From: Pseudomonadota bacterium
GTDB taxonomy: Bacteria; Myxococcota_A; UBA9042; GCA-2863065
NCBI GenBank assembly: GCA_005776585.1
Contig: SXOX01000185.1
Coordinates: 20,013-84,012, forward strand
DNA length: 64,000 bases
Direction: 5' to 3'
Position numbers and translations under genes: made by a program. The notes under the pieces are model-generated. The model did no database searches. It was not told the origin of the DNA and saw nothing but the letters and a program-made list of their open reading frames with translations. Positions 22,066-60,087 of this stretch are shown here, piece by piece. Position 1 is the first letter of the stretch. Each line of letters opens with the position of its first letter.

Positions 22066-22072
22066 GCCGCGC

Positions 22073-22939: not shown

Positions 22940-22980
22940 CGGCCCTTCCCGTCGTGCCTCGAGTTCGGTACGCTGAGGCC

Positions 22981-41583: not shown

Positions 41584-41605
41584 GTCAGGGAGACTAATGG
41601 GAGCG

Positions 41606-41628
41606 TCTGGCGCCGTCGAGGCGCCAGA
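41606..41628. other. Perfect inverted repeat TCTGGCGCC-GTCGA-GGCGCCAGA (9-bp stem, 5-nt loop)
   Basis: Read directly; abuts the stop codon of the 41629..41691 micro-ORF; no T-tract on either side. Confidence 0.85.
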
Positions 41629-41691
41629 TCACGCGGGCGGCGTAGGACGCGGTCGGGGCACGGGCGCGGGGCGCCAGTTTGTCGTGCTCAT
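41629..41691 (-). CDS. Proline-rich 20-codon micro-ORF (MSTTNWRPAPVPRPRPTPPA), candidate leader peptide
   Basis: ATG with GAGGAG SD 7 nt upstream; 9 of 20 codons are Pro; stop followed immediately by hairpin. Confidence 0.4.
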   Translation of the reverse strand: MSTTNWRPAPVPRPRPTPPA

Positions 41692-41742
41692 GGTGACTCT
41701 CCTCGGTTTCAGTTCATTGCGACGACGATCGCCGCAATGGGT

Positions 41743-41771
41743 AGCATCCTGAGCCTCTCGCGCCATGTCAA
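41743..41771 (-). promoter_or_regulatory. Candidate sigma70-type promoter TTGACA-N17-GATGCT
   Basis: Perfect -35 (plus-strand tgtcaa 41766-41771), 17-nt spacer, GATGCT; within the 41584-41817 gap. Confidence 0.45.
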
Positions 41772-41817
41772 ACGGTCCGGAGGGCGCGGGCGCCCGTTGT
41801 GTAATGTTTCTCGACCC

Positions 41818-43317
41818 TTAGAACTGAAACTCCACGAACGGGTACTCCGGGCTCGACCGATCGCGTGGCGTCGTCGGTTCCAGGAGTGAGGGTACGCGGA
41901 GTGACTGTGTGAGGGCGTCCCAGTGCATGCGTCGGGCCACGCCGCAGCCCGAGGCGGCCTGCCATTCGACATGCGCGAGGCCGGTAGAGACCGCCCGCTC
42001 GAGCCGCCCATCGCGAAGTCGGCGACACCGAACACAGCGAGATGCGTCGGCTCCGACGAAGACGTCCGCGTTGAGCACGACCTGACTGGCGACCTCATCG
42101 GCGTCGGTCTCGGAGACCGTCGTCAGCTCCAGTGGCGCGCAGCGCGGGCCTACGTGCGCTGCGAGCGCAGCGGCGACGCGATTGGCGGTCAGCGTCCCTT
42201 CTCGCCAGACCCGCTCATTGGCGACGCAGAGCGCCAGGAGCGCCGCGAGCGTCACCGCGACGACGAGCTTGGCACGCGCCCCCTCGACCGACTGCGGCAG
42301 GGCCAGCGCGAGCCAGATCGCGGACGCAGCGAGCGGCAGGTGAAAGAAGTACCAGCGAAGCTCGAAGCCACCCTCGGCCGCCGAAACGAAGCGCCACGCG
42401 TCGTGGTACTGCGGAAGGAACGGCAGCATCGTGGCCAGAACGACCGCGGTCCCCCGACGAAGCGGCCTGCGCCAGGCCAAGCCCACGACGGTCGCTGCGA
42501 GCAGAACGAAGGCGACGACACGGAGCGCGCCCGCGCCAGCAACGGCCGGATGCACGGGCATGAGCGGCCAACCAAGCGCAGCGAGGAGCGCCAACTGGGG
42601 AGACTCGACCCAATGAAACGAACCGGCCGTGCCGTGACCGGCCGCACGCGTCAGAGCGACGCGCACCGCGACGTGGAGTGCGAGCACGCCTGCATACGCG
42701 AGCAGCCACGCCCATCGCGAACGGTGCGACCCTGCCGTCGGAACGAGGAACACGAGCGCTGAAACACAGGCCGCGTTCTCCCTGGTCAGGGTGGCAAGGC
42801 CGAACCAGAGCAACGCGAGACGATGTCTCCCACGCAGCCACGCCAGCGCCCAGAGGAGGAGCGGCGCGGTGACCGTCATCCCCTCGAAGCCGCTATGGGG
42901 CCACGCGAGCGCTTCGGAGTGCAGCGGAAACGCCGCAAAGACGAGCGAAGCGACCGCGGCGCGTACCGTGCCCGACCCGACCACGACCGCGCATCGAGCA
43001 ATGAGCACGGACGAGGCGAGATGCAGCAGTGCATTGGTCACGAGCCGCGGAGCGGCGGCGCCACCAAACAGCGCAAACTCGACTCCGGCACGTGCAGTCG
43101 AGAGCGGACGCCACGTCGGCTCGGAGGTCCACAGCGTCGCCAGCTGCTCAAGCCGGTCGCCCCAACCTGCCGAGGCGACCGCCTGGCCCATGCGCAACAC
43201 GAAGGCGTCATCGCCATCGAGATAGCCCCCAGGCCAAGCCGCGCCCACCTGAACGGCTACGATGACGCCGAGCGCAACCCAGTAGCTGAGCGGAAGGCGC
43301 TCCGAGCCCGCCGTCAT
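41818..43317 (-). CDS. Polytopic membrane protein (GT-C-like)
   Basis: 499 aa, many TM segments; GYLDGDDAFVLRMGQAV early-loop acidic motif and TLWTSEPTWRPLSTARAGVEFALFG, compatible with GT-C; starts 1 nt after GT2 stop. Confidence 0.65.
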   Translation of the reverse strand: MTAGSERLPLSYWVALGVIVAVQVGAAWPGGYLDGDDAFVLRMGQAVASAGWGDRLEQLATLWTSEPTWRPLSTARAGVEFALFGGAAAPRLVTNALLHLASSVLIARCAVVVGSGTVRAAVASLVFAAFPLHSEALAWPHSGFEGMTVTAPLLLWALAWLRGRHRLALLWFGLATLTRENAACVSALVFLVPTAGSHRSRWAWLLAYAGVLALHVAVRVALTRAAGHGTAGSFHWVESPQLALLAALGWPLMPVHPAVAGAGALRVVAFVLLAATVVGLAWRRPLRRGTAVVLATMLPFLPQYHDAWRFVSAAEGGFELRWYFFHLPLAASAIWLALALPQSVEGARAKLVVAVTLAALLALCVANERVWREGTLTANRVAAALAAHVGPRCAPLELTTVSETDADEVASQVVLNADVFVGADASRCVRCRRLRDGRLERAVSTGLAHVEWQAASGCGVARRMHWDALTQSLRVPSLLEPTTPRDRSSPEYPFVEFQF

Positions 43318-43318
43318 C

Positions 43319-44032
43319 TCAGGCCGAAACCAGCTCTCGCCAGTGCGTCACGATCTCGCGAGCCGCGTGGCTCACGGCGAAGAGATCGGCCCCCTTGGGG
43401 CGACCCGCCTGACGGGGGCGATGCCTCACGGGAAGCTCGATGACGGCCAGACCCGCACGGGTCGCCTTGGCCATGAGCTCGGCTCCAAACAAGTTCCCTT
43501 CGCAGACGAGGCGAACTCGGTCGAGCACCGAACGCCGCATCACCTTGAGCCCGCAGTCGACGTCCAGGTACTGCGTCCCCGTGGCCAGCCGCACCGACGC
43601 GTTGTAGGCAAACCCGATGGCGCGCCGATGCGGCGGATCGACGCGAGCGTGGCGAGCCCCCGCGACGAGGTCATAGCCTCCGCCCTCCAAGACGGTCGTC
43701 AAGTAGCGCAGGTCCCCCGGGTCGAGCTGACCGTCCCCGTCGAGGTAGGCAACCCGAGCCGCGGTCGCCGACACAAGGCCCCGATAGACGGCCACGCCAT
43801 AGCCGCGACGTTGCTCGTTGCGCAGCACGCGGACAGACAACGCGGAGCACGCCGACCGAGCCACGTCCGCCGTCCCATCGCTGCTGCCATCGTCGACGAC
43901 GACGACCTCCGTCGCGCCAGCTGCCTCCGGCCACCCGCCGACCTGCTCCTCGAGACCCGCAAGCAGCGCGGGTAACGATTCACGTTCGTCGTGCGCCGGA
44001 ATGACGATGGACAGCCACGGGGGCGACGTCAT
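43319..44032 (-). CDS. Glycosyltransferase family 2 (dolichyl-phosphate mannosyltransferase-like)
   Basis: LSIVIPAHDERESLPALLAGL, EVVVVDDGSSDGTADVAR, VAYLDGDGQLDPGDL; ATG overlaps the stop of the giant gene. Confidence 0.92.
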   Translation of the reverse strand: MTSPPWLSIVIPAHDERESLPALLAGLEEQVGGWPEAAGATEVVVVDDGSSDGTADVARSACSALSVRVLRNEQRRGYGVAVYRGLVSATAARVAYLDGDGQLDPGDLRYLTTVLEGGGYDLVAGARHARVDPPHRRAIGFAYNASVRLATGTQYLDVDCGLKVMRRSVLDRVRLVCEGNLFGAELMAKATRAGLAVIELPVRHRPRQAGRPKGADLFAVSHAAREIVTHWRELVSA

Positions 44033-47000
44033 GGACAGAGCGGTTCGCCGACCTTTGCCGAGTTGCCGCACTTGTACTGAGGCTGGCCGTTCTTGGCGCA
44101 GAGGTCGTCGGTGCAGAAGTTGCCATCCTCACAGCCGTCGTCAGCGCTGCAGCCGTTGCAGCCGGGCGTGACCGTGAACTTGCATCCGCTCTGTGAGCCC
44201 GTGTCGCAGAAGTCGGTCGTGCACGGGTTGTAGTCGTTGCACACGCGGGGCGAGTAGACGCACACTCCCTGGAAGCACTCGGAGTAGGTGCACTGGGTCT
44301 CGTTTCCGCACTGCGCGCTCGGAGCACCAGGGGGATCCGTGCAGACCTTGAAGACCGAGGCAGGATCTGACGTGCAGACACCCGTGGCGTTGTCGCAGGT
44401 ATCGAGCGTGTTCGGGTTGCCGTCATTGCAGCCCGACTTGAGCGCGACGCTGCACTTGCCCGCGACACAGGAGGTCTTGTAGCACGGGCCCAGGGTCGGG
44501 CAATCCGTCGCCTGAGTGCACGTCTTTCCGCCGCAGGTGCTGTCGACCAGCTTCATGCAGCCCGAGTTCGTCGCGTCACACAGCGCCGAGCCATCGACCG
44601 TGCACGGGTTGCCGTCGTTGCACTCAACCGCCGTGTGGCTGCATTGCCCGGAGACCAGGTCGCAGCGGTCAACCGTGCAGTTGTCAACGTCCAGGCACTC
44701 GCGATCGAGCGTGCACTTCACAATGTTGCACTCCGGTACCGCGCTCGGCAGGTCGTAGCAGTTGCCGGTGGAGTCGCACAGGTCGATCGTACAGTCGTTG
44801 TTGTCGTCGCAGTCGAGCTCCTGAGACACCAGCTTGCACTTCCGACACCCTGCAATGAGCGTATGACTGCACTGCGCCGTCGACGTGTCACACAGATCCG
44901 TGCTGCACAGGTCGAAGTCGTTGCAGTCGGCGTTGTTGGAGCATCCCTGGCAGCCCGGGAGCGCGGTGAAGATGCAGCCAACCGCCGGATCGCAGGCGTC
45001 GGTCGTGCAGGGGTTCAGGTCGTTGCAGTGAATCGCGACCACGAAGCACTCGCAGTTGGCCTCACCAGACAGGCAGTTGCCTTGCGCGCCACTGCACGTG
45101 GCCGGGTTGCACTTGTCCCCAAAGTCGCAGTCGGCGTTCGTAGTACATGAGCCCGTCCAGTTGCACCCGGGCACAGACACGGTCTTGATGAGACCGGTCA
45201 GGTTGTCGCAGTAGTGCTTGGTGCACGGGTCATCCGGGGGAATCGGCACCAGCTCGGGCTCCTGACAGATGCCATTGAGGCACTTGTGAACCGAGCACTT
45301 GAGGCCATCATCGCAGTCAGCGTCTTGGACGCAGGTCGCCGTGCACGGGATGGCCGGCTGAAGCAGGCAGCCCGTCACCGGATCGCAGGCGAGCTTCGAG
45401 ACGGTGTTCGCGCCTGACCCGGTCGTCGTGAACTCGGTGGTACACGCAAGGCCGTCCTGGCAAGCGACGGTTCGAGACTCGCAGAAGCCGTTGACGCAGC
45501 GCTCGAACGTGCAGGCATTCGAGTCAAAGCAGTCCACGTCCTTGGCGCACGCCTTCTTGCCGCAGTTGGAGTTGTACTTGTTGGTGCACGCGTGCGTCGT
45601 GGGGTTGCAGATATCGGACGTACAGACGTCGGCGTCGTTGCAGTCGGCGTCGCTCGTGCCACACGCATTCTTGCAGTTGATGATCTTGGTGAACTGGCAG
45701 CCATTCGTCTTGCTGCACGTGTCAGTGGTGCATGCGTTCGAGTCGCTGCACTCGAGCGGATCGAGCAGGCAGTACCCGGAAGGCATGCAGCTGTCGACCG
45801 TGCAGGCGTCCGAGTCATTGCAGTCGAGGCTCGTCACGCACTTGCCCTTGCATCCCGCGACCGTCTTGGACGTGCACGTCCCGTTCTTGCAGGTGTCGAG
45901 CGTGCAGGGGTTGCCGTCATCGCACACGAGCACCTGTACGGCGCACTTGCCCGACTGACAGACGCCTGGAGCGCACTTGTTCCCGGTATCGCAGTCGGCG
46001 TCTGTGGCGCAGCTCGCCGTGCACTCCAGATCGGGCGTGGTGACGCAACCGCGCGTCGGATCGCAGATGGTCAATGAGGTGCAGGGCTTGCCATCATCGC
46101 ATTGGGTCGCCGTCCAGAAGCACTTGCCGGCGACGCGGTCGCAGCGATCGGCCGTGCACGCGTTGCCGTCAAAGCAGTCCATGTCCGCCGTGCAGTTCTT
46201 CGGACAGGTCACCGTCGTCACGGCGTCGTGCCAGCACTTCAGGGCCGAGGTCGGGTCGTTCTCTTCGGTTCGACAGTAGTCGATGGTGCAGTTGTCCCCG
46301 TCGTTGCAGTGGTAGTTCGTGGTGCACGGTCCGCCACCCCAGCCGCCGCACTTGGGCAGCGTCGGATCTGCGACGTGGAGACAGAATGAGAGCACTGCAT
46401 GACATGAATCTACGGTACACGCATTACCGTCGTCGCAGGCGACCGCCTGCGTACTCGCAGGCAGGGTCGGGTTGCACTTGGTGCAATCAGGCACCTTGAA
46501 GACGATACACCGGTGGGACGTCTGGTCGCACTGGCCAAACGAGCAGATGTCCGAGACGCCGCACTCCGCGTTGAGCGTGCACGGCAGACAGTTCGAGATC
46601 AGGTCGAACGTGCACACGCCCGACGTACACACGCCGGTCGTGCAGGCGTTGCCGTCGTCGCAGTCCGCACCCGTGACGCAGCCGGTACAGCCGGCAATCG
46701 GGACGAACTCGCACTTCTTGGTCGCGACGTTGCACGAGTCTACGGTGCACGGATTGTAGTCGTTGCATGCAATCTCGATCTGGAAGCACGCGCCCTCGAC
46801 GCAACGCGGTGGAGCACATCCTGCGACGCCGACGTCCGGGCAGTCCGAATCGGCGAAACACGCACCAGAGCACGTCGGATCGGCCGGATGACCACAGGCC
46901 TTCTTCACGGAATCGCAGATGTTGAACGTGCAATCGTCGTCGTCCTCACACAGGTTGTCACCTTCCAGCTTGCAAGCACCTGCGACGCACGTGTAGCCGC

Positions 47001-50000
47001 TGCACGCATCGACCTCCTGGCAATCCGCGGTCGTGTTGCACGGCTTCCCGTTCGGTACACGGTGCAGGTAGGTGCAACCATATCCCTCGATACAGGAGCC
47101 GTTCGCCGGAATGGCGGGGTTGGCCGAGTACACGCAGTCGGGAGCGAGGTGGCGACACAGGCTAGAGCCGACATAGCACTCGTCCCGAGTGCAGGTGTGA
47201 TCGTCGACACACTCGGAGTCCGTCTTGCAGTAGATGGTCGGGCAATTGGGGACCGGCTCATACGAGCATTGACCGAGGACGCAGGCGTCAGAGGTGCAGG
47301 CGTCGTCGTCATCACAGTCACTCGACGCCGAGCACTGGCCGTCGACGCACGACCCGGCGACCTTCGTGAACGTGCAGCCCACCGCAGGATCGCAGGAGTC
47401 AACGGTGCAGCTGTTGTAGTCGTTGCAGTTGTAGGACTCGAAGATGCAGGTCTTGCCGACCGGATCACAGCTCGAACGGAGGCACTTGTTGCCGAGAGCC
47501 AGACAGTCGTCGCTCGTCGCGCATACGGTCCCGCGATTGGTGCAGACGGTGTCCGACTTGTGGACGCACAGGCCATCGACCGGGTTGCAGTAGCTGAACG
47601 TGCACTTGTTCGCGTCATCGCAGACGACGAGCTGATGCTGGCACTTGTACTTGTCGAGGTCGCACACGTCCTTGGTACACGGATTCAGGTCATCGCAGTC
47701 CAGGTCCGCGTCGCAGCCGGCGCAGTTGGCCGTGGAGAAGAACTGGCACCCGCGCGATGGGTCACAGGCCACGGTCCCGAGCGTCGCGTCCACCTCACCG
47801 GTGCACGTGACCTCGTCGTTGCAAATCTTGGCCTTGGAGCCGCACGTAAAGTTCTGAGGCACCGAGGTGTCGCAGAAGTACTCGAGGCACAGGTTGGGAA
47901 CTGCCGGCACGCACTCGGCGTCGGTCCCGCCGGGGCAGGGCGTGCAATTCAACGAGGGCTTCCACGCGCACGTCCCGTTCGCGACGTCACCGGTTGCGCC
48001 CTGACACTCGTCCTGGGTACACGGGTTTCCGTCATCGCAGTCCGCGGCCTTGGCGCAGTACTCCACGCAACCCGCGTACTGGGTGTGGACGCACAGCTGC
48101 GTCGCCGACGTGCATGTATCGTAGGTGCAGTCGATCTTGTCGGCGCAGGCCTTGGGCGTATTGAGGCACTTTCCGCCAATGCAGACGTCGACGGTACATG
48201 CATTGGAGTCGTTGCACGTCGCTGCGGTGGTGCACGCCTGGCCGCACACGGTCGCGACCTTCTCGTGCTCGCAGGGATCGGCGCCCGACTTCGTCGGATT
48301 GCAGAAATCGCGCGTGCAGACGTCCGAGTCATCGCACGTCAAGACGACGTTCTCGCACTTGCCGGTCGTCGGGTTGCAGCTGTCCGCAGTGCATCGGTCG
48401 AGGTCCGCGCACTTCAGCGCCTTGAACTCGCACTGCCCGGTGGCGGGGTTGCAGCTGTCGTCGGTGCACTTGTTGCCGTCGTTGCAGGGCTTGAGCGTCG
48501 ACTTGCAGGTGCCGGCGTTGGCGTCACAGAAGTCGAGCGTACACGGGCTCCCGTCTTCGCAGACCAAGGCAACGCTCTTGCACGTGCCGTTGGTGCAGGT
48601 GTCGAGCGTGCAGTTGTCGCCGTCGTTGCAGGTCTGGGGCGTGAACTTGCAGAGACCTGTGGCCGTGTCGCAGGAATCGCTCGTGCACGCGTTGAGGTCG
48701 TTGCAGAGCACCGGCGAGTTCACGCAGGACCCGGTCACGGTGTCGCAGACGTCGGTCGTGCAGAGGTTGGTGTCCTTGCAGTCCTTGAAGGTGAAGGTAC
48801 ACGCGCCGGTAGTCGCGTCACACGTGTCGATTGTACAGGCCTTGCCGTCGTTGCAGGTGATCGGCGTCGAGAGACACTTGGCCAGGAGGACGTTGCAGAA
48901 ATCGGTCGTGCACTTGTCACCGTCATCGCAGACCAACGGGGTGTACTTGCATCCGGTCGTCTGGTCACACGTGTCGGTCGTGCACGCGTCGTTGTCGTTG
49001 CAGGCACCAATCTGGTCGTGAGCGCACAGGCCGGTCGTCGGCGAGCAGGAGTCCTTGGTGCACGCGTTCTTGTCGTCGCAGTCGATTGGGGTGGCGACGC
49101 AGCCGCCCTTGGCCTTGTCGCACACGTCGGTCGTGCACTTGCTGTTGTCGTCACAGACACGCGGCAACGACTTGCACGTCTTGGTCGCCTGGTCGCACTT
49201 GGCGATCTGGCACGGGTCACCGAACACCAGCGGTCCGCACGTGCCGTCGCTGCCATCCGGGCAACCCACGTCGGGGCAGGCCTTGGCCGGGTTCTGACAG
49301 CCCACGCCGGCCGCGCAGAGGTCGTCGGTGCACAGGTTGCCGTCATTGCACAGATTCGGTGCGTGCTGGCAGTCGCCGTTGACACAGAAGTCGATTGAGC
49401 ACGGGTCGCCATCGTTGCAGGTCTTCTGGTTGTACTTGCAGACCTTGTTCCCGCCCTGCTGGACGCAGACGTCGGTCGTGCACGGGTCGAGATCGTTGCA
49501 CTCGGAGTCCGCGGTGCAGGCGCACAGGACGCCCGGAATCGGGACGTTCTGGCAGCCGATGGCGGAGTTGCAGCTGTCGACCGTGCACGCCTTGCCGTCA
49601 TCACAGCTCTTCGCAGGGTAAGCGCAGCCCGTATCGGCGTCGCACTTGTCGTCGGTGCAGGGGTTCGAGTCGATGCAGACGACGCCCACGTTGCGGCAGC
49701 CCTTCGCGCCATCGCAGAAGTCGACGGTGCACACGTTTCCGTCGTTGCAGTTGACCGCCACATGGACGCAACCGAGGGTCGGCAAGCAGCCGTCGGAGGT
49801 GCACGCGTTCCCGTCGTCGCAGTTGACCAGCGTGTTCACGCAACCGACGAGCTTGTCGCAGTAGTCGTTGGAGCACAGGCTGCTGTCATCGCAGCTGACG
49901 ATCTCGTGGGCGCAGTTGCCCGTGGCCTGACTACAGGAGTCCTTGGTGCACGCGTCGCCGTCGTCGCACGACTTCTTGACGAACACGCAGCCCTTGGTCG

Positions 50001-53000
50001 GATCACAGGTGTCATTGGTGCATGGGTTGCCGTCGGTGCAGGTCAGCGGCGTGTAGCTGCAGCCGGTCGCGACCGAGCACGTGTCGACCGTGCAGGCGTT
50101 CTGGTCGTCGCACGCGGAGACCGTCGTGCATCCGAGCTCGGTGGTCGCATCGCACAGGTCCTTGGTGCAGGTGTCGCCGTCGTCGCAGACCTTCGGGACG
50201 TACTGGCAGCCGTGCTGCTTGTCGCACGTCTGGCCCAAGGCGTTGGACTCCACCGTGCACGGGTTGTCGTCGTTGCAATCGACCGGCTGATACGAGCACT
50301 GGCCAGTCCCCGGGTTGCAGAGGTCCTTGGTGCACGCGTCGAAGTCCGAGCAGTCCTTGGCGAAGTGGAGGCAGCCCGCAACCGAGTCGCAGACGTCGAA
50401 CGTGCATTGGCTGTTGTCATCGCACCCGAACGTGTACGTACACCCGATCGTGGCGTTGCAGGTGTCCGTGGTGCATGGGTCGGTGTCGGCGCATTGTAGG
50501 GGAACGTGGACGCACGCTCCGTTCGCCGCGCAGGCATCGCTCGTACACGGGTCGGCGTCGGCGCAGTTCTTCGGCACGAACACGCAGCCGCCGATCTTGT
50601 CGCACGCGTCGGTCGTGCAGGGATTGCCATCGGCGCACGTGGTCGCTGAGTTCTGGCACTTGCCACCGAGGCACTTGTCGGTCGTGCAAACGGAGGCGTC
50701 GTTGCAGTCGGCGTCATTCGAACACGGTGGCGTACACGGATTGAGCGCCGAATTGAAGCACCCGGTGACGCCATTGCACTGGTCGAGCGTGCAGTAGATG
50801 CCGTCAGAGCAGTTGATCGGCGTAAACTTGCAGCCTGTCGCCAGGTCGCAGGTGTCGGTCGTGCAGACGGAGCCGTCGTTGCACGTGATGGCCTTCGAGG
50901 CGCACTTACCGTCGAGCGGGGCGCAGGTGTCGGTCGTGCATGCGTTCTGGTCCGAGCAGTTCTTTGGCGTGTGCACGCAGCCCGTCGCGGAGTTGCAGGT
51001 GTCAATGGTGCACAGGTTCAGTGCGCCGCCGACCTGATCCTGGCAGTCGACCGGCCCGTGAGAGCAGCCCAGTGTCGTCCCGTCACAGACATCGACCGTG
51101 CAGGCGTCGTTGTCATCGCACTTGTTGCTGTGGAGGCAGCCCTTCGCCGGGTCGCAGGAATCCACGGTGCACGACGAGCCATCGTCGCAGTTGGTGGCCT
51201 CGTGATAGCAGCCGTCCTGCTCATCGCAGAGGTCCTGAGTGCACGCATCAGCGTCGCGGCAGACCGTCTCGATGAGGTTGACGTGAGAGCACACGCCGGT
51301 GGTCTTGTTGCACAGGTCGGAGGTGCAGTTCAGTCCGTCGCTACAGTCGACGAGCGGCGGATTCTGGCAACCGAGCACCGGGTCGCACAGGTCCTTGGTG
51401 CACACGTCCTTGTCATCGCAGGCGTACGTGTTGACGCAGCCGAGCGCCGGGTCGCACTTGTCGGCCGTGCACGCGTTGAAGTCGTTGCAGTCCTTGATGG
51501 TGTGCTGGCAGAGGCCCGTACCGGAGTCGCAGAAGTCGGTCGTGCACTTGAGGCCATCGTCGCAGTTGACGGCCTTCAGCTGGCACCCGATGACCTTGTC
51601 GCACACATCGATCGTGCATGGGTTCGCGTCGTTGCAGCTGATCGCGGTCTGCGTGCAGACCTTGCCCTTGGTTCCGCCAAGGTCCTGGCACTTCGACGCA
51701 GTGCAGGCGTTGCCGTCATCGCAGTCGCTGTCGAGCCCGCTCGGGCACGGGACGGTGCACGGGTTGATCGCCGAGTGGACGCACCCGGTCGAGACGTCGC
51801 AGAGGTCCTGCGTGCACGGCTTCTTGTCGTCGCAGTCGACCGCGACGTTGATCGGGGTCGCCACACAGCCGAGCTTCGTATCGCACGAGTCGAGCGTGCA
51901 CTTGTTCGAGTCGTTGCACACCTTGAGGGTGTACGCGCAGATTCCGGTCGCCTTGTTGCAGCCGTCAGTCGTGCACTCGTTCTGGTCGTTGCACGCCTTC
52001 TGCTGGAAGATGCAGCCCTTCTCCGGAAGACACGCGTTGAGCGTACAGGCATCGCCGTCGTCGCAGAGGATCTGCGTGTGGGAGCAGGCGAGCGTGTCGG
52101 AGCAGACATCGGCCGTGCAGGCGTCGCCATCGTCGCAGTAGGACAGGTGCACGCAGCCCTTGACCGGATCGCACACATCGACGGTGCAGACCGTCCCGTC
52201 ATCACACGACTCGGGCGGGTTCAAACAGCCGTCCTCCGGGTCGCACAGCGCGTTCAGGCAGTTCTGTCCAGGTGGGTTGCAGAAGAGGATCGAGTCCTGC
52301 GTACACGGCTTGCCGTCGTTGCACGGGTTGACCGGGTTGGAGCAGGCGCCGTTCGTCTTGTCGCACACATCCAGCGTACAGAGGTTGCCATCCGAGCAGT
52401 TCTTCTGCTTGTTGACACAGCCCAAGAGCGGGTCGCACGTGTCAATGGTGCAGGCATTCGCGTCATTGCACGCGTAGACGTTCGTGCACCCGGCGACCGC
52501 GTCGCACTTGTCGGTCGTGCACGGGTTGTTGTCGTTGCACGTGTTCTTCGGGTTGGTGCACTTGCCGGAGCCGGTGTCGCAGACGTCCTGAGTGCACGGG
52601 TTTCCGTCCGAGCAATTCTTCTGCGGAAACACGCACCCCACGAGCGGATTGCAGCCGTTGTCGGTGCAGGGGTTCTGATCGTCGCAGACGGGCGTCGTGT
52701 GAGTGCAGTTCTTGTTCGTCTCGCACTTGTCGATGGTGCACGCGTTGCCGTCGTCGCACTCGGCTTGTGTGCCGCCGGGGCACGGATTCGGACAGGTTGG
52801 CCCGAGCGGAACGAACACGCAGCCGGCCTTGGGATCGCACGTGTCGATGGTACAGATGTCCTTGTCCTTGCACGGAATTGCGTCGTGGAGGCAGCCCGAG
52901 AAGATGTTGCAGGAGTCGAGGGTGCAGGCGTCCTTGTCGTCGCAGCTCGTGACGGAGTAGGTGCACTGGCCCGTGAGCGCGTTGCAGACGTCCGTCGTGC

Positions 53001-56000
53001 AGGCGTTGCCGTCGTCGCAGTTGACCAGAGCGTTCGAGCACGCACCCGTCAGCGGGTTGCACGAGTCTTGTGTGCACGGGTTTTTGTCGTCGCAGGCCGT
53101 CGAGAACTTGCAGGTCGCGGTGGCCTCGTCGCAGACGTCCTTGGTGCACGGGTTGTTGTCGTTGCAGGTGAACGTCTCGTGGCCGCAGACGCCGGTCGCC
53201 TTGGCGCAGGTGTCCTTGGTGCACGGGTTATTGTCGTTGCAGTTCTTTGGGATGTGCCCGCAGGCTTGCGTGACCGGGTCGCACGTGTCAGTCGTGCACT
53301 CGTCGGCGTCCTTGCAGAGCGGCGGGTAGATACAGCCCGACGCCGCATCGCACAGGTTGACGGTGCAGGCGTTGGAGTCGTCGCACGAGACCGTGGTGTA
53401 GCTGCACGTCCCGGCGGGCTTGGTGCACTTGTCGATGGTGCAGACGTTCTTGTCGTCGCACTTGGACTGATAGGTACAGCCCTTGATCGGGTCGCAGCCG
53501 TCGTTGGTGCAGACGTCGTTGTCGTTGCACTGGACTGGCGTGTAATCACACGTCCCCTTGGTCGCGTTGCAGACCTCGGTGGTGCACGCCGAGCCATCGT
53601 CGCAGTTGAGCTTCGTGAAGGTGCAGCCCTTGACGGGATCGCACTTGTCGACCGTGCAGCCGTCGGTGTCCTTGCAGACGAGCAACGTGTAGATGCATCC
53701 AGTCACCTTGTTGCACGTGTCCGAGGTGCACTTGTCCTTGTCGTCGCACGGCTTCACCGGGTGGAGGCAGGTGCCCGTCGCGGCGTCACACTTGTCGTCG
53801 GTGCACAGGTCCGTGTCCGCGCAGTTCTTCGGCGTGTTGAGGCAGAGCCCGGTCAGCGAGTCGCAGGCGTCGTCTGTGCACTTGTTGCCGTCATCACACT
53901 TATTGACGGTGTTGACGCAATTGCCCGTCCCCACATCGCAGGTATCGACAGTGCAGGGGTTCTTGTCGTCGCAGTTCTTCGCGAGGTTCTGACAGCCGAC
54001 GCCCTCGGCGCACTTGTCCGTCGTGCACTTCTTGCCGTCGTCGCACGACAGCGGTGCGTTGATGCAGTCTCCTGTCGCCGGGTTGCACGAGTCCTGGCTG
54101 CAGACCGAGGAGTCATCGCACACCCGCGGGACGTGCAGGCAGCCCAAGGTCTGGTCACAGGAGTCCGCGGTGCAGTTGAGGCCGTCCTCGCAGAACTCGG
54201 GCTTGTGGGAACAGTTTCCGGTGTCCGCGACGCACGCGTCGATGGTGCACTCATTGCCGTCGCCGCAGTCGACCGGCTTATTCAAGCAGGAACCCGTCGT
54301 GGGGTCGCAGGAGTCCTGAGTGCACGGCTTCGAATCGTCGCAGCTCTTCGGTGGGTTGGTGCAGCCGCCGGAGGCGTCGCAGTTGTCGAGCGTGCACGGG
54401 TTCTTGTCGTCGCAGGCGCCGGGGTGCAGGCAGGCGCCGTCGTCCTTGTTGCAGACGTCGCTCGTACACACGTTGGCATCGTCACACTGCTTGGGCTTGT
54501 GGTCGCAGACGCCCGTGGTCTTGAGGCAGGTGTCATCGGAGCAGTTGTCGTTGTCCGAGCAGTTCTTGGTCGCGAACACGCAGAGCCCCGTCACGGTGTC
54601 GCAGGAGTCGTCGGTGCACTTGTTTTGGTCGTCGCAGACCTTGGGCGGGTGATCGCAGGCGCCCGTGGCCGCGAGGCAGACGTCTGCCGTACACGCGTTG
54701 CCGTCGCCGCAGTCCGTTGCGTCGTGGTCGCAGTTGAACGTCCCCGCGATCGGGTTGGACAGGCACTTGTCGAACGTGCACTTGTTGGCGTCGTCGCAGC
54801 CCTGTGGCGTGAAGGTACACTTGCCCTTGCCCGCCGTGATCGTGCACTTCGCCGAGACGCAGTAGTCGATGACCTTGGTGCCCGGCTTGAGCGGATTGTC
54901 GACCATGCGATACGGATCGCAGTCGCCGTCGAGCTTGCAGTCCGGCGGTCCGCAGTCGGGGCTCTTGGTGTCCCACGTGTAGCTACAGCCCGCGCCGCCG
55001 TTGCAGCTATCGATCGTGCACTTGTTCTGGTCGTCGCACGTCGACGGGAAGAGGCAGGCGCCACCAGAGCAAAGGTCGACGGTGCACGGATCAGAGTCCT
55101 TGCACTTGGCGCCATAGGTGCACGCGCCAGTGTCCGCCGCGCACGTGTCCGTGGTGCAGGCATCCTTGTCGTCGCACTTGTTCGGGAAGTCGCACGTCCC
55201 GGTCGCCGGGTTGCAGGTGTTCGCCGTACAAATATCTGCGTCCGTGCACACGATGGCGTTGTTGGAGCACGCTCCAGTGAGCGGATTGCACTGGTCATTG
55301 GTGCACTTGTTGCCGTCGTCGCACGTGACCGGCGGATTCTTGCAGCCGGTCTTGGGGTCGCACTGGTCGAGTGTGCACTTGCTAAAGTCGTCGCAGCTCT
55401 TGAGCGAGGTGGTGCAGGCGCCGGTGCCGGCCTCACAGGCGTCCACAGTACAGGCGTCCTGGTCGTCGCAGACCTTGGGCGTGTAGGTGCAGTTGCCCGT
55501 GCCCGTGTCGCAGGCATCGAGGGTACACTTGATGCCGTCGTCGCAGGTGATCGCCGTGCTGGCGCAGTTGCCGCTCGTCGGGTCACAGGCGTCCTTCGTG
55601 CAGAGCTTTCCGTCAGAGCAGTCCTTGGGCGGGAAGGTGCAGGACCCTAGCTTGGAGTCGCACCCATCGACGGTGCAAGGGTCGCCGTCGTTGCAGGTGA
55701 TCGCGGTGCTCGCGCACGCGCCGGTCCCGGCAGTGCAGGTGTCTACCGTACACAGATTCTTGTCGTCGCAGGACTTGGGCTTGGTCTGACACTGCCCGTT
55801 GATCGGGTTGCATGAGTCGACGCTGCACGGATCCTGATCATCGCAGACCTTGGGCGTGTAGATACACGCGCCGGTCGCCACGGTGCACGTGTCGGCCGTA
55901 CAGGGGTTCTTGTCGTCGCAGTCCGTGTCCAGGCCGCACTTGCAGTTCGCGCCGACGACGAACACGTAGACGCAGCCCTGGATCGGGTTGCAGGACTCCG

Positions 56001-59000
56001 TCGTGCACTTGTTGAGGTCGTCGCAGTTGCGCTGCGTGTGCGTGCAGCCCGTCTTGGGATCGCACGCGTCGTCGGAGCAGGCGTCGCCATCGTCGCAGTC
56101 GAGCGTCACGTGCGTGCAGGTGCCGGTCGTGCCCGGGTTGGAGCAGCCGTCGGTCGTGCACGCCGTGCCGTCGTCACAGTCCTTCGGAGGATACTGGCAG
56201 TTGCCGCTGGCCTTGTCGCACGTGTTCACGGTGCAGGCGTTGCCGTCCTCACACGTGATCGGGGCGTGGACGCAGCCGAGCGACGTGTTGCACGTGTCCG
56301 CCGTGCACTTGTCGCCGTCGTTGCACGAGTCCGGCGGATAGTAGCAGCCCACGTTCTTGTCGCAGAGGTTCGCAGTGCAGGGCTTGTCGTCTTCGCAGAC
56401 GACGGGGGAGTACACGCACAGACCCGTGGTCGGGCTGCAGGCGTCCATCGTGCACTTGTTCCCATCGTCGCAGGCCTTGGCCGGGTTCTGACAGCCGGCT
56501 CCCGGGGAGCAGACGTCGTCGGTGCACGGATTGCCGTCGCTGCAGTTCGCCGGCGGGTGGGAGCAGGTGCCGTTGGACTGGTTGCACGAGTCGGCCGTGC
56601 ACGGGTTGCCGTCGTCGCAGCTCTTGGGGGTCGAGCTGCACAGACCGGTGCTCTTGTCACACGCATCGACGGTGCACGCGTTCTTGTCGTTGCACTCCTT
56701 GGGCGTCGAGCTGCAGATCCCGGTATTCGGGTTGCAGGAGTCCGTGGTGCAGAGCAGGCCGTCGTCGCAGGTCTTGTTCGTCCAGAAGCACTTGCCGGTG
56801 GCGACGGTGCAGCCGTTCGTGGTGCAAGCGTTGTTGTCGTTGCACAGAGGGTCATCGATCGGAAGCTTGCAGACTTTGCCTGCGCACCCAGGGAGATTGG
56901 GGTTGAGCTTGTTGACGCAGCCGGAGATGGGGTCGCAAGAGTCTTCGGTACAATCGACGGCGTCGTTGCAGTCCTTGGCCGTGTGGTAGCAGCCATCGAC
57001 GGCCGGGCTGGCCTTGTCGCAGCCATCGGAGGTGCACGTGTTGCCGTCGTCGCAGTTCACATCGATGTTCTGGCACTGACCCGTCTGACCGTCGCACAGG
57101 TCCTTGGTGCAGGCGTTCTTGTCGCTGCAGCTCTTGGGCAGGAACTGGCAGGTGCCTCCCTGGCAGACGTCGTCGGTGCAGAGGTTGCCGTCGGCGCACA
57201 CGATGGCGACACTGGTGCACTGGCCCGTCTGCTGGTTGCACGTGTCGATCGTGCACGGGTTCTTGTCGTCGCACGACTTGGCCGGGTAGAAGCAGCCCGC
57301 CAGCGGATCGCACGAGTTCTGCGAGCACGGATTGCCGTCATCGCAGGTGATTGGGGCATGGACGCACGCACCGTTCGTCTTGTTGCACGACGAGTTGGTG
57401 CACACGTTGGCGTCGTCACACGTGATCGGGGTGTTGGTGCAGCCACCACCGGGCGTGCAGGTGTCGACCGTACACGGATCCTTGTCGTCACAGCCGACCG
57501 CGATGTACTGACATCCTCCCGTCTGAGGGTTGCACTGGTCTGCCGTGCAGGCGTTGGCGTCGTTGCACGCCTTGGGGACGTGGTTGCAGACGTCGCCGAG
57601 CTTGTTCTTGTCGCAGGAATCTACGGAGCACTTGTCGGTGTCTTCGCAGCCGTTGGCGGTGTTGTTGCAGCTGCCCGTATTCGGGTTGCACGAATCGAGA
57701 GTGCACGCGTCGTTGTCGTCGCAGTTCTTCGGCTTCGCGGAGCAGAGGCCCTCTTTGGCTCCCAGCGGGATCACACAGATGTCGTCGGTGCACAGCGACT
57801 TGTCATCGCAGCCAGCGTTCTCCGTGCAGACGATACAGGTGTTGATGAAGGAGCAGCCCGCGGACTTGGTGCACGCGGAGGCAAAGCACTCGGGCGGATA
57901 CTTGCCCTTGGGAGCAGGGACCACCAGATCGCACCAGACGTCCTTGGCGTTGCCCGGACACGGATCGCACGTCACGTCGGCATGGGCACAACCGGTCGTG
58001 GGGCTGCAAGAGTCGGAGGTGCAGAGGTCTCCGTCACCGCAACTGACGGCGGAGTACGAGCACGAGCCGTCCGCGGGGTTGCAGATGTCCTTGGTACAGT
58101 TCGAGCCGTCGTCGCACGTCACGGCCGTGTACACGCAGCCCTTCTTGGGATCGCAGGAGTCGATGGTGCAGCCGTCGCCGTCAGTGCAGGGCTTGAAGGT
58201 CGAGATGCAGCCGGACTTGCTGTCGCACTTGTCGTCGGTGCAGGCGCTTTGGTCGTCGCAGGTGATGGGGACGTTCTGGCAGGTGCACTTGACCGGATCG
58301 CCGATGTCATTGGTGCAGCTGTTGCCGTCGTCGCACAGGCCGCAGGAGACGTGCTCGCACTCGCCGTTCTGCGGGTTGCAGCTGTCCTTGGTGAGCGGAT
58401 TCAGGTCGTCACACGGGTTGACCTCGTGCTTGCAGCCGGTGGCCGGGTCGCAGAAGTCCAGCGTGCAGGGGTCGGTGTCCTGACAGTCCTTCTGCTTGTT
58501 GACGCACTTGCCGTAGTTGGGGTTGTCCTTGCCGTTCGGTAGGAGCTTCGTGCCATCGCAGGAGCCCTCGAGGCACTTGTCGGAGCCGACCTGGCAGAGG
58601 ACCGGCGCGTGGTTGCACGCACCCTTCTTCCCCGGGCAGCCGTTCGGAACGACGGACTTGATGTACGTCGGGTCCGAGTCGCACAGGTCGTAGGTGCACG
58701 GGTTGGTGTCGTTGCACTCCGAGGCCTGGTTGCAGCAGTTGATGGGCGGGCAGGCGACGTTGTCTGCCGGGTGGATGCAGGCCTTGATGATCGGATCGCA
58801 CTGGTCCTGCGTGCACTTGTCGCCGTCGTCGCAAATGACGGAGACGAGGTTGATGCAGAAGCCCTGGTCGCAGAGGTCGTCGGTACACGCGAGTCCGTCG
58901 TCGCACCAGGTCTGGTCCTGACAGGGGCAGCCCGGCTTCTTGTCGGGTGCGTGGGTGCACTCGTCTTTGACCTCGTCGCAGGCGTCCGCAGTGCACGAGT

Positions 59001-59430
59001 CGCCGTCGTCGCAGTTCACGGCACCGAAGACGCAGACGCCGAGCTGAAGCGCGTCGCAGTAGCCGGTCTTGCAGAAGAACTGAGAGTTGCAGAAGTCGTC
59101 CCACTGAGCCGCGGTCTTGGAGGCGTCGCCGCAGTCGAAGCAGTCCGCCTTGGCCGGGTGGTTGCAGCCGGTCGCCGGGTCGCACAGGTCGTCGGTGCAA
59201 GACTTGCCGTCGAAGCAGGTGATGGCGGTGAAGACGCACTCGCCGAACTTGTCGGCGTCCTTGGTCTTCTTGCAGCTGGCCTCGAGGCACTTGTTCGCGC
59301 CGTTGGTGGGGTGCTTCGCGCAGTCGGTCGCGAGCGTAGCGGCCTCGCACGGGTAGCAGGTCGGGAGCTTGGACCAGCTGCAGATGCCGCTGCCGGCGCC
59401 CTGTTGGTCGTTGCAGGTGTCGATGGTGCA
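44029..59430 (-). repeat. Very long protein-coding repeat array, unit roughly 24-35 codons (CDDxNxCTxDxCDxxxGxCxxxxxx)
   Basis: Repeats evident in translation; units diverged rather than identical at DNA level. Confidence 0.88.
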
Positions 59431-59760
59431 CGGATCGCCGTCGTCGCAGTCGGCGGGCAGGGCGCACTTCTTGCCCGCGTCGGCCGCGATGTCGGCGTCG
59501 CCGGTCGTTGCATCCGCGTCGCCCGTCCCCGTGTCGGGGAGGTCGTCGATGGGCGGTCCCTCGTCGTCGTCGCTGCTGCCGCCGGCGTCGGTGTCTTTGC
59601 CGACATCGTTCTTGCCGCCCGTGTCCTGGGTGTCCCCCGGGACGTCCGGAACGTAGGGGTCCCCAGGAGGGTCCTCGGGTTTCGTGCACGCCCCGAGAGC
59701 GACGAGCGCCACGAGAGCCCACACGGCCACCGAATTCGAAAACACGCTCTGGATGCGCAC
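44029..59760 (-). CDS. Giant (~5243 aa) Cys-rich surface lipoprotein made of Dicty_CTDC-like repeats
   Basis: Single uninterrupted ORF; GTG start candidate MRIQSVFSNSVAVWALVALVALGAC (lipobox); acidic Asp/Gly linker; repeats such as CDDGNPCTADSCNQSNGTCSHPPANC over nearly the whole length. Confidence 0.9.
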   Translation of the reverse strand: MRIQSVFSNSVAVWALVALVALGACTKPEDPPGDPYVPDVPGDTQDTGGKNDVGKDTDAGGSSDDDEGPPIDDLPDTGTGDADATTGDADIAADAGKKCALPADCDDGDPCTIDTCNDQQGAGSGICSWSKLPTCYPCEAATLATDCAKHPTNGANKCLEASCKKTKDADKFGECVFTAITCFDGKSCTDDLCDPATGCNHPAKADCFDCGDASKTAAQWDDFCNSQFFCKTGYCDALQLGVCVFGAVNCDDGDSCTADACDEVKDECTHAPDKKPGCPCQDQTWCDDGLACTDDLCDQGFCINLVSVICDDGDKCTQDQCDPIIKACIHPADNVACPPINCCNQASECNDTNPCTYDLCDSDPTYIKSVVPNGCPGKKGACNHAPVLCQVGSDKCLEGSCDGTKLLPNGKDNPNYGKCVNKQKDCQDTDPCTLDFCDPATGCKHEVNPCDDLNPLTKDSCNPQNGECEHVSCGLCDDGNSCTNDIGDPVKCTCQNVPITCDDQSACTDDKCDSKSGCISTFKPCTDGDGCTIDSCDPKKGCVYTAVTCDDGSNCTKDICNPADGSCSYSAVSCGDGDLCTSDSCSPTTGCAHADVTCDPCPGNAKDVWCDLVVPAPKGKYPPECFASACTKSAGCSFINTCIVCTENAGCDDKSLCTDDICVIPLGAKEGLCSAKPKNCDDNDACTLDSCNPNTGSCNNTANGCEDTDKCSVDSCDKNKLGDVCNHVPKACNDANACTADQCNPQTGGCQYIAVGCDDKDPCTVDTCTPGGGCTNTPITCDDANVCTNSSCNKTNGACVHAPITCDDGNPCSQNSCDPLAGCFYPAKSCDDKNPCTIDTCNQQTGQCTSVAIVCADGNLCTDDVCQGGTCQFLPKSCSDKNACTKDLCDGQTGQCQNIDVNCDDGNTCTSDGCDKASPAVDGCYHTAKDCNDAVDCTEDSCDPISGCVNKLNPNLPGCAGKVCKLPIDDPLCNDNNACTTNGCTVATGKCFWTNKTCDDGLLCTTDSCNPNTGICSSTPKECNDKNACTVDACDKSTGLCSSTPKSCDDGNPCTADSCNQSNGTCSHPPANCSDGNPCTDDVCSPGAGCQNPAKACDDGNKCTMDACSPTTGLCVYSPVVCEDDKPCTANLCDKNVGCYYPPDSCNDGDKCTADTCNTSLGCVHAPITCEDGNACTVNTCDKASGNCQYPPKDCDDGTACTTDGCSNPGTTGTCTHVTLDCDDGDACSDDACDPKTGCTHTQRNCDDLNKCTTESCNPIQGCVYVFVVGANCKCGLDTDCDDKNPCTADTCTVATGACIYTPKVCDDQDPCSVDSCNPINGQCQTKPKSCDDKNLCTVDTCTAGTGACASTAITCNDGDPCTVDGCDSKLGSCTFPPKDCSDGKLCTKDACDPTSGNCASTAITCDDGIKCTLDACDTGTGNCTYTPKVCDDQDACTVDACEAGTGACTTSLKSCDDFSKCTLDQCDPKTGCKNPPVTCDDGNKCTNDQCNPLTGACSNNAIVCTDADICTANTCNPATGTCDFPNKCDDKDACTTDTCAADTGACTYGAKCKDSDPCTVDLCSGGACLFPSTCDDQNKCTIDSCNGGAGCSYTWDTKSPDCGPPDCKLDGDCDPYRMVDNPLKPGTKVIDYCVSAKCTITAGKGKCTFTPQGCDDANKCTFDKCLSNPIAGTFNCDHDATDCGDGNACTADVCLAATGACDHPPKVCDDQNKCTDDSCDTVTGLCVFATKNCSDNDNCSDDTCLKTTGVCDHKPKQCDDANVCTSDVCNKDDGACLHPGACDDKNPCTLDNCDASGGCTNPPKSCDDSKPCTQDSCDPTTGSCLNKPVDCGDGNECTIDACVADTGNCSHKPEFCEDGLNCTADSCDQTLGCLHVPRVCDDSSVCSQDSCNPATGDCINAPLSCDDGKKCTTDKCAEGVGCQNLAKNCDDKNPCTVDTCDVGTGNCVNTVNKCDDGNKCTDDACDSLTGLCLNTPKNCADTDLCTDDKCDAATGTCLHPVKPCDDKDKCTSDTCNKVTGCIYTLLVCKDTDGCTVDKCDPVKGCTFTKLNCDDGSACTTEVCNATKGTCDYTPVQCNDNDVCTNDGCDPIKGCTYQSKCDDKNVCTIDKCTKPAGTCSYTTVSCDDSNACTVNLCDAASGCIYPPLCKDADECTTDTCDPVTQACGHIPKNCNDNNPCTKDTCAKATGVCGHETFTCNDNNPCTKDVCDEATATCKFSTACDDKNPCTQDSCNPLTGACSNALVNCDDGNACTTDVCNALTGQCTYSVTSCDDKDACTLDSCNIFSGCLHDAIPCKDKDICTIDTCDPKAGCVFVPLGPTCPNPCPGGTQAECDDGNACTIDKCETNKNCTHTTPVCDDQNPCTDNGCNPLVGCVFPQKNCSDGNPCTQDVCDTGSGKCTNPKNTCNDNNPCTTDKCDAVAGCTNVYACNDANACTIDTCDPLLGCVNKQKNCSDGNLCTLDVCDKTNGACSNPVNPCNDGKPCTQDSILFCNPPGQNCLNALCDPEDGCLNPPESCDDGTVCTVDVCDPVKGCVHLSYCDDGDACTADVCSDTLACSHTQILCDDGDACTLNACLPEKGCIFQQKACNDQNECTTDGCNKATGICAYTLKVCNDSNKCTLDSCDTKLGCVATPINVAVDCDDKKPCTQDLCDVSTGCVHSAINPCTVPCPSGLDSDCDDGNACTASKCQDLGGTKGKVCTQTAISCNDANPCTIDVCDKVIGCQLKAVNCDDGLKCTTDFCDSGTGLCQHTIKDCNDFNACTADKCDPALGCVNTYACDDKDVCTKDLCDPVLGCQNPPLVDCSDGLNCTSDLCNKTTGVCSHVNLIETVCRDADACTQDLCDEQDGCYHEATNCDDGSSCTVDSCDPAKGCLHSNKCDDNDACTVDVCDGTTLGCSHGPVDCQDQVGGALNLCTIDTCNSATGCVHTPKNCSDQNACTTDTCAPLDGKCASKAITCNDGSVCTTDTCDLATGCKFTPINCSDGIYCTLDQCNGVTGCFNSALNPCTPPCSNDADCNDASVCTTDKCLGGKCQNSATTCADGNPCTTDACDKIGGCVFVPKNCADADPCTSDACAANGACVHVPLQCADTDPCTTDTCNATIGCTYTFGCDDNSQCTFDVCDSVAGCLHFAKDCSDFDACTKDLCNPGTGQCSYQPVDCNDDNPCTVESNALGQTCDKQHGCQYVPKVCDDGDTCTKDLCDATTELGCTTVSACDDQNACTVDTCSVATGCSYTPLTCTDGNPCTNDTCDPTKGCVFVKKSCDDGDACTKDSCSQATGNCAHEIVSCDDSSLCSNDYCDKLVGCVNTLVNCDDGNACTSDGCLPTLGCVHVAVNCNDGNVCTVDFCDGAKGCRNVGVVCIDSNPCTDDKCDADTGCAYPAKSCDDGKACTVDSCNSAIGCQNVPIPGVLCACTADSECNDLDPCTTDVCVQQGGNKVCKYNQKTCNDGDPCSIDFCVNGDCQHAPNLCNDGNLCTDDLCAAGVGCQNPAKACPDVGCPDGSDGTCGPLVFGDPCQIAKCDQATKTCKSLPRVCDDNSKCTTDVCDKAKGGCVATPIDCDDKNACTKDSCSPTTGLCAHDQIGACNDNDACTTDTCDQTTGCKYTPLVCDDGDKCTTDFCNVLLAKCLSTPITCNDGKACTIDTCDATTGACTFTFKDCKDTNLCTTDVCDTVTGSCVNSPVLCNDLNACTSDSCDTATGLCKFTPQTCNDGDNCTLDTCTNGTCKSVALVCEDGSPCTLDFCDANAGTCKSTLKPCNDGNKCTDDSCNPATGQCEFKALKCADLDRCTADSCNPTTGKCENVVLTCDDSDVCTRDFCNPTKSGADPCEHEKVATVCGQACTTAATCNDSNACTVDVCIGGKCLNTPKACADKIDCTYDTCTSATQLCVHTQYAGCVEYCAKAADCDDGNPCTQDECQGATGDVANGTCAWKPSLNCTPCPGGTDAECVPAVPNLCLEYFCDTSVPQNFTCGSKAKICNDEVTCTGEVDATLGTVACDPSRGCQFFSTANCAGCDADLDCDDLNPCTKDVCDLDKYKCQHQLVVCDDANKCTFSYCNPVDGLCVHKSDTVCTNRGTVCATSDDCLALGNKCLRSSCDPVGKTCIFESYNCNDYNSCTVDSCDPAVGCTFTKVAGSCVDGQCSASSDCDDDDACTSDACVLGQCSYEPVPNCPTIYCKTDSECVDDHTCTRDECYVGSSLCRHLAPDCVYSANPAIPANGSCIEGYGCTYLHRVPNGKPCNTTADCQEVDACSGYTCVAGACKLEGDNLCEDDDDCTFNICDSVKKACGHPADPTCSGACFADSDCPDVGVAGCAPPRCVEGACFQIEIACNDYNPCTVDSCNVATKKCEFVPIAGCTGCVTGADCDDGNACTTGVCTSGVCTFDLISNCLPCTLNAECGVSDICSFGQCDQTSHRCIVFKVPDCTKCNPTLPASTQAVACDDGNACTVDSCHAVLSFCLHVADPTLPKCGGWGGGPCTTNYHCNDGDNCTIDYCRTEENDPTSALKCWHDAVTTVTCPKNCTADMDCFDGNACTADRCDRVAGKCFWTATQCDDGKPCTSLTICDPTRGCVTTPDLECTASCATDADCDTGNKCAPGVCQSGKCAVQVLVCDDGNPCTLDTCKNGTCTSKTVAGCKGKCVTSLDCNDSDACTVDSCMPSGYCLLDPLECSDSNACTTDTCSKTNGCQFTKIINCKNACGTSDADCNDADVCTSDICNPTTHACTNKYNSNCGKKACAKDVDCFDSNACTFERCVNGFCESRTVACQDGLACTTEFTTTGSGANTVSKLACDPVTGCLLQPAIPCTATCVQDADCDDGLKCSVHKCLNGICQEPELVPIPPDDPCTKHYCDNLTGLIKTVSVPGCNWTGSCTTNADCDFGDKCNPATCSGAQGNCLSGEANCECFVVAIHCNDLNPCTTDACDPAVGCIFTALPGCQGCSNNADCNDFDLCSTDLCDTSTAQCSHTLIAGCRKCKLVSQELDCDDNNDCTIDLCDSTGNCYDLPSAVPECNIVKCTLDRECLDVDNCTVDRCDLVSGQCSHTAVECNDGNPCTVDGSALCDATNSGCMKLVDSTCGGKTCTQATDCPTLGPCYKTSCVAGKCSVALKSGCNDGNPNTLDTCDNATGVCTSDPASVFKVCTDPPGAPSAQCGNETQCTYSECFQGVCVYSPRVCNDYNPCTTDFCDTGSQSGCKFTVTPGCNGCSADDGCEDGNFCTDDLCAKNGQPQYKCGNSAKVGEPLCP

Positions 59761-59858
59761 ATGGTGCGTCGCTTCGCGAAGTCGCACACCCACCTCCAAT
59801 GACCTTCCCACGCCAAAACCCCGAGGCCACCCACAGGACGGCCGCTTCCCAGCGTGGC

Positions 59859-59888
59859 ATCTTAGGCACATCGTGGCCGGAGGATCAA
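59859..59888 (-). promoter_or_regulatory. Weak candidate promoter TTGATC-N18-TAAGAT for the giant gene
   Basis: Plus-strand gatcaa 59883-59888 and atctta 59859-59864; ~95 nt upstream of the GTG start. Confidence 0.3.
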
Positions 59889-59998
59889 ATCCCAGGGACC
59901 CCGTCAAGGCCGCTCCGTTAGCGTTCCACATGCGTGTCGCGAGCGAGGCACGGCCCGCCGCTCCGGGTCATCGATGACCCGCCACCGGGTGGCGCGTG

Positions 59999-60027
59999 TT
60001 GACACCGCCAGGCCACCTCCGAAGAAT
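59999..60027 (+). promoter_or_regulatory. Candidate promoter TTGACA-N17-AAGAAT for the Kazal-repeat lipoprotein
   Basis: Perfect -35 hexamer; ~60 nt upstream of ATG 60088. Confidence 0.4.
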
Positions 60028-60087
60028 GGGGCGTCAGGGCGAGCCCCCGGGCGGGAAGTGCGCGCCAGGCCGGCAGTGGAGGGGAAG

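Follow-up and report, generated by a model that had tools for sequence, protein, structure and literature searches.

A giant bacterial lipoprotein built of CTDC repeats, probably a disulfide-clamped stalk or matrix fibre

We analyzed a window of 64,000 nucleotides from an uncultured Myxococcota bacterium and found that it encodes a giant lipid-anchored protein made almost wholly of approximately 180 small cysteine-clamped hairpins. This protein is probably a very long, stiff, protease-resistant and anionic cell-surface stalk or matrix fibre, that is, an outer-membrane lipoprotein forming a fully oxidised rod. The earlier note on this DNA had described an intact ORF of 15.7 kb encoding 5,243 amino acids; the ORF and its length stand, and its strand was corrected to minus. 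The gene is one unbroken minus-strand frame, and the plus-strand frame at 44029-59760 is full of stops. The longest possible frame begins at an ATG at 59931 (44029-59931, minus strand, 5,300 amino acids). The lipobox and the acidic linker named in that note were both recovered, the lipobox directly after a hydrophobic segment and the linker from residue 26 onwards. The features of the gene and its protein are the following:

44029-59760, minus strand: giant CTDC-repeat lipoprotein gene, GTG start, 5,243 amino acids, assigned by PF00526 and by orthologs in two other genera
59686-59706, minus strand: lipobox LVALGAC (residues 19-25), with Cys25 as the predicted lipidated residue
59473-59685, minus strand: acidic Cys-free linker of approximately 70 residues (26 to 96/97), between the lipid anchor and the repeats
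44032-59472, minus strand: repeat region of approximately 181 hairpin modules, in runs split by CxxC-type spacers
55693-56253, minus strand: seven-unit segment (187 amino acids) modelled with AlphaFold2, mean pLDDT 92.9, pTM 0.60

The giant contains 811 Cys (15.5%), 13.5% Asp and 10.9% Thr, and its acidic residues outnumber the basic ones (793 versus 325). The claimed match to PF00526 (Dicty_CTDC), a family that includes the EcmA, EcmB, PdiA and Psi proteins of Dictyostelia and also occurs in Physarum, was borne out at 1,577.7 bits (E=0, 82 significant stretches in residues 1-3920), far above low-complexity background and above the curated gathering cut-off of 27 bits. Single units reach 43 bits, and the 24-amino acid unit with four Cys and a CTxDxC core occurs in tandem. 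An HMM of the family built for this analysis detected 181 modules, which cover 4,227 of the 5,243 amino acids (81%). The modules follow the pattern C1-DDGNx-C2-TxDx-C3-x4-6-C4-x6, with a unit length of 23 to 26 amino acids, 6-5-6/7-7 as the commonest spacing, and strong conservation of D3, N/D5, T8 and D10. Beyond approximately residue 3,900 the repeats become less regular.

A misassembly or frameshift, which the earlier note had considered, is very unlikely in view of the orthologs, the Cys parity described below and the signs of selection. An independent assembly from another genus of the same family (L088) encodes an ortholog of equal size, with 5,296 amino acids and 155 core units versus 156 in the giant. 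The 2 proteins are 49% identical with 782 aligned Cys, and they share 7.5 non-Cys residues per 25 in register versus approximately 5.8 off register. In a third genus, the ortholog is split over 2 contig pieces (3,178 and 2,104 amino acids, with 100 and 52 units). Neighbouring genes are conserved across the three genera, and the number and order of the core units and the positions of the Cys are kept between them. Five close pairs of family relatives gave dN/dS values of 0.12-0.17, which indicates purifying selection. In addition, short-read collapse is unlikely because the tandem identity among the repeats is low at the DNA level. Because of the same-length ortholog, the conserved neighbours, the dN/dS values and the even Cys count, we consider the ORF real and intact. 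Elsewhere in the family, an ortholog group of exactly 44 core units (L023, L027, L036, L047, L062, L066, L075 and L080) retains approximately 215 Cys columns at 45-89% identity across genomes; seven of its members have 214-216 mature Cys, and L066 is without a lipobox call.

Counting Cys residues proved informative on how the units are held together. The giant has 810 Cys, an even number, once the lipobox Cys is set aside. Parity requires that exactly this residue be set aside, which fits Cys25 as the lipidated residue that would anchor the giant to the membrane. The mature Cys count was even in 75 of the 78 complete family members bearing a lipobox (p ~5e-19; 63 of 66 in an earlier set). Among the exceptions, the lipobox of L076 offers two possible Cys (ACGC), the signal call of L079 is unconvincing, and L032 is a true exception. 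As controls, randomly truncated family proteins gave 725 even and 835 odd counts, and unrelated ORFs 316 even and 261 odd. Differences in Cys content between relatives also came in even packets: among 318 related pairs, which overlap and are not independent, groups of 1, 2, 3, 4, 5 and 6 Cys occurred 33, 497, 17, 276, 14 and 338 times, respectively. These counts strongly support that every Cys after the lipidated one would be paired in a disulfide.

To approach the partners, we collected co-loss events from related pairs aligned with mafft, requiring a substitution at both sites; the events were de-duplicated and limited to losses of exactly two Cys (n=28). The 2 lost Cys were three apart in the Cys order in 22 events (p ~2e-15 against 1/8), one apart in 3, four apart in 1 and five apart in 2. 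Thirteen of the 22 separation-3 events were independent losses of C1 and C4 of one unit, and in approximately 7 others the partner lost with C2 was the first Cys to follow a run. In one separation-5 event, C2 was lost together with C3 of the next unit. Such co-loss strongly supports a C1-C4 bond that would close each unit and suggests that C2, and C3 by elimination, would bridge outward to neighbouring Cys or units, and it turns cysteine bookkeeping into a testable bonding scheme. The AlphaFold2 model, through its hairpin register, had pointed to nested C3-C4/C2-C1' bonding, but this scheme was dropped: separation 1 accounts for only 3 of the 28 events, with no clear C3+C4 pair. Two other ways of scoring were also abandoned. 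A model trained on intact modules selects complete units and so yielded too few losses for scoring co-loss, and a first-pass pairwise scoring was dominated by gaps and was replaced by the mafft-aligned pairs. Units that lack C1 and C4 mostly keep D3, N/D/S5, T8 and D10 (28-31 of 33), and because of this retention the acidic loop appears to have a role of its own. Comparison of L202 with L199, L200 and L201 offers units naturally without C1-C4 that keep the acidic loop, as natural knock-outs of one disulfide.

VKOR-type disulfide oxidases were found in 25 of 26 relatives, the source genome among them. With 810 Cys in approximately 5,200 residues of the giant and 774 in approximately 9,500 of another family member, this uncultured class would devote many genes to oxidised rods, a disulfide load that would make demands on bacterial secretion and folding.

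The AlphaFold2 model of seven consecutive units, computed with 87 related rows, showed one beta-hairpin per unit. C3 faces C4 in the hairpin register, which by itself would also permit a C3-C4 bond. Together with the even Cys count and the paired Cys losses, the predicted hairpins support the disulfide-stabilised fibrous architecture that the earlier note had proposed. Foldseek searches of the PDB with this model returned five matches below 1e-3, all of them to the heavy chain of the Entamoeba histolytica Gal/GalNAc lectin (HgL; arc and arm, PDB 9gja/b/c/f/g), with E-values of 2.7e-5 to 1.2e-4 and prob 1.00; the next match had an E-value of 1.9. Low TM-scores (0.20-0.26, taken by query length), which flexible elongated chains can be expected to give, mark the likeness to HgL as local. 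The significant match comes from one Foldseek search, and a second model from another genome (pLDDT 74.9) agrees with it by rank alone, its five best matches being HgL again at non-significant E-values of 0.03-0.4. No significant match was found in a viral fold library. PDB chains, HgL included, gave no sequence match when searched with the profile or with single sequences, at cut-offs of E=1 and E=10, and no solved structural relative of PF00526 was found by sequence in the PDB. By predicted fold, the unit comes nearest to the Entamoeba lectin arm, which ties PF00526 to an amoebic adhesin whose arm was solved recently.

HgL modules comprise 20-35 residues with four Cys, of which 1 and 4 are bonded within the module and 2 and 3 to neighbouring modules (PMC12948311). 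The giant would share this bonding logic, its C1-C4 bond being deduced here from co-loss. However, HgL modules are described as three-stranded whereas the model of the giant has two strands per unit, and the direction of the bridges may differ, as C2 would reach forward in the giant but reaches backward in HgL. Moreover, no light chain or lectin domain was found for the giant. EGF-like, TNFR and Notch-type chains likewise use tandem disulfide modules as stalks, but no EGF Pfam match was found in residues 1-3920 of the giant and the Foldseek matches to such chains were not significant (E 5.6 for the second model against Notch EGFs).

The genes surrounding the giant are these:

43319-44032, minus strand: glycosyltransferase family 2 (GT2) gene (PF00535, 5.7e-25), whose ATG overlaps the stop of the giant (ATGA)
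41818-43317, minus strand: multi-pass membrane protein without a Pfam match, next in the putative operon
39166-41583, minus strand: PMT_2-type (GT-C) glycosyltransferase, 805 amino acids (PF13231, 2.6e-10)
36770-39190, minus strand: second PMT_2-type glycosyltransferase, 806 amino acids (PF13231, 1.5e-7)
59974-61656, plus strand: divergent Kazal-repeat lipoprotein (PF07648), lipobox VLVAC, 52 mature Cys (even)

Because of the ATGA overlap, the GT2 gene and the giant are probably co-transcribed and translationally coupled. GT2 and membrane-protein genes also lie downstream of the ortholog in the third genus (L195), and the Kazal lipoprotein gene adjoins the giant gene on its upstream side, divergently, in three genera. 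The minus-strand genes at 36770-44032 could plausibly form a putative protein glycosylation cassette. A 611-amino acid frame at 37449-39284 was discarded as an overlapping artefact, the better gene call being 36770-39190.

Altogether, we propose that the ectodomain of this outer-membrane lipoprotein would be one continuous, fully oxidised rod of approximately 180 small beta-hairpins, with disulfides probably made by VKOR-type enzymes, C1-C4 closing the units and C2/C3 tying neighbouring ones. The chain may be stiff and may project outward from the cell from its anchor at Cys25, although the lipobox alone is silent on which face of the outer membrane the giant occupies. The D-D-x-N-x-C-T-x-D loop may, as a guess, bind cations such as Ca2+, and the coupled GT2/PMT_2 genes may glycosylate the many Thr, so that the rod would be decorated with both. 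It could serve as a capsule-like coat and/or an adhesion boom, and its build would resemble that of the amoebic Gal/GalNAc lectin arm. The adhesion role is a guess because no known lectin or adhesin domain or ligand-binding head was found in the giant by Pfam/NCBIfam in residues 1-3920.

Other functions would place the emphasis elsewhere. The giant could be a matrix or S-layer-like coat that depends on calcium and is glycosylated; what matters would then be its charge and glycans and not its length, the rod being a scaffold that carries cations and sugars. The excess of acidic residues, the conservation of D3, N/D5, T8 and D10 even in most units without C1-C4, and the coupled GT2/PMT_2 genes are in line with such a coat, but the cation site and the glycan are putative and the glycosyltransferases may serve other substrates; we regard this reading as rather unlikely. 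We attach still less weight to a role as a specific adhesin that recognises prey, kin or surfaces through ligand-binding units within the irregular last quarter of the chain. That the nearest fold is an adhesin arm (PMC12948311) and that the region past approximately residue 3,900 is more irregular speak for it, as does TraA, a cell-cell adhesin on the surface of Myxococcus xanthus that carries Cys-rich repeats (PMC6372800). Unlike the giant, TraA has a variable domain that is PA14-like, and it bears a MYXO-CTERM tag in place of a lipobox. Against an adhesin stand the lack of lectin or adhesin domains by Pfam/NCBIfam in the portion searched and the finding that the Cys-rich former 'CRD' of HgL does not bind sugar (PMC12948311). 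The high contents of Cys and Asp could also suit a metallothionein-like metal or thiol sink, or a redox store with reduced cysteines. This is very improbable: an even Cys count in 75 of the 78 members and the loss of Cys in pairs are expected of disulfides and not of thiolate clusters, the protein bears an extracytoplasmic signal, its Cys pattern is not dominated by CxxC or CxC, and VKOR is present. Slighter still is the chance that the gene is a fast-evolving array, driven by slippage or recombination, for surface variation. The many similar units in one gene and the many paralogs would be expected of such an array, but it is contradicted by the unit order and number kept between genera, the in-register similarity and the fixed 44-unit group, as well as by the low DNA-level identity of the repeats and by purifying selection. 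The oxidised stalk or matrix fibre thus stays our preferred reading.

CTDC proteins (PF00526/IPR001673) are known from Dictyostelia in an extracellular matrix setting, with 6-15 such proteins each in dictyostelids and Physarum and none in Acanthamoeba (PMC4931340). The giant resembles them in its 24-amino acid unit and consensus (1,578 bits over 3,920 amino acids) and differs in being a bacterial lipoprotein with approximately 180 units per chain, in a genome with at least 61 such genes versus 6-15 proteins. Kinship with amoebozoan proteins at the level of the repeat and the fold is supported by the profile matches and the model; the giant units share sequence positions with Dictyostelium and the fold alone with HgL. 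This likeness might reflect convergence on a simple Cys-clamped hairpin and not descent, which we hold to be a serious possibility, if short of an even chance, and which concerns origin and is compatible with a rod or stalk function. The units are short (24 amino acids), so that such hairpins could arise repeatedly, the profile matches no PDB chain by sequence, and the sampled bacteria share no PA14/fibro-slime architecture with the amoebae. In contrast, single bacterial units reach 44-52 bits against the 24-position PF00526 model, which implies that non-Cys positions are also shared with the Dictyostelium family. That the Myxococcota giants, the CTDC matrix proteins and the HgL arm hold one module by descent, moved between Myxococcota and an ancestral amoebozoan, seems to us unlikely; if it were true, multicellular slime moulds would owe their matrix, and an amoebic adhesin its stalk, to a module of bacterial surface rods. 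The link by fold makes the structure and origin of the slime-mould matrix repeat testable in a bacterial system. Co-occurrence with fibro-slime/PA14 was rejected as a mark of amoeba-bacterium transfer: the dictyostelid architecture of CTDC with PA14/fibro-slime was not found, with no CTDC unit in 40 sampled fibro-slime loci of the phylum. Of 189 genomes across the phylum, 36 contain fibro-slime, and the source genome lacks Fibro_Slime and has a single PA14 match. Genomes of the genus g107 (G183, G187, G153, G172 and G121) each encode 3-8 large fibro-slime proteins, without CTDC in the loci sampled.

The earlier note had framed the giant as a lone exotic protein, which proved too narrow. In the source genome, a MAG of 7.0 Mb with 87% completeness, no fewer than 61 frames carry at least three core units, a lower bound counted on part of its contigs; these contigs together have 1,120 core units, and their Cys number 8,940. 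One of them lies in the same window:

22066-24651, plus strand: second CTDC lipoprotein, 8 core units, 68 mature Cys, lipobox HLVIGC

The distribution survey covered the phylum Myxococcota, 14 control genomes, phages and plasmids. PF00526 was present in 36 of 36 relatives and in 52 of 52 sampled genomes of the class, and the CTDC repeat is thus ubiquitous in this class. Outside the class, 85 of 232 genomes of the phylum had it (E<=1e-6), mostly in few copies. The 14 control genomes gave no PF00526 match, and phages and plasmids gave no CTDC-repeat matches. The open-access literature that we searched held no account of this bacterial family.

A frame of 9,562 amino acids on another contig of the source genome (G000, C177; L091 and L090) is longer than the giant, with 43 core units, a lipobox, and 774 Cys (even) in a mature protein of 9,528 amino acids. 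In other family members, CTDC units are fused to an FGE-sulfatase-like domain (L109, 6772-12483, minus strand), to a lamin-tail domain (LTD; L192, 3791-7960, minus strand), or occur with Glucodextran_B and a weak LBP/BPI match (L095, 2376-6731, plus strand), which is consistent with CTDC units being a general-purpose stalk beside folded domains. L046, L085 and L058, whose MAG records bear the names Klebsiella pneumoniae (CAMDBH) and Candidatus Uhrbacteria (JACRJU), also carry the repeats; these bins are probably mislabelled or chimeric. The named relatives are MAGs of Myxococcales/Deltaproteobacteria, and several of them, to judge from their titles, come from lakes or groundwater.
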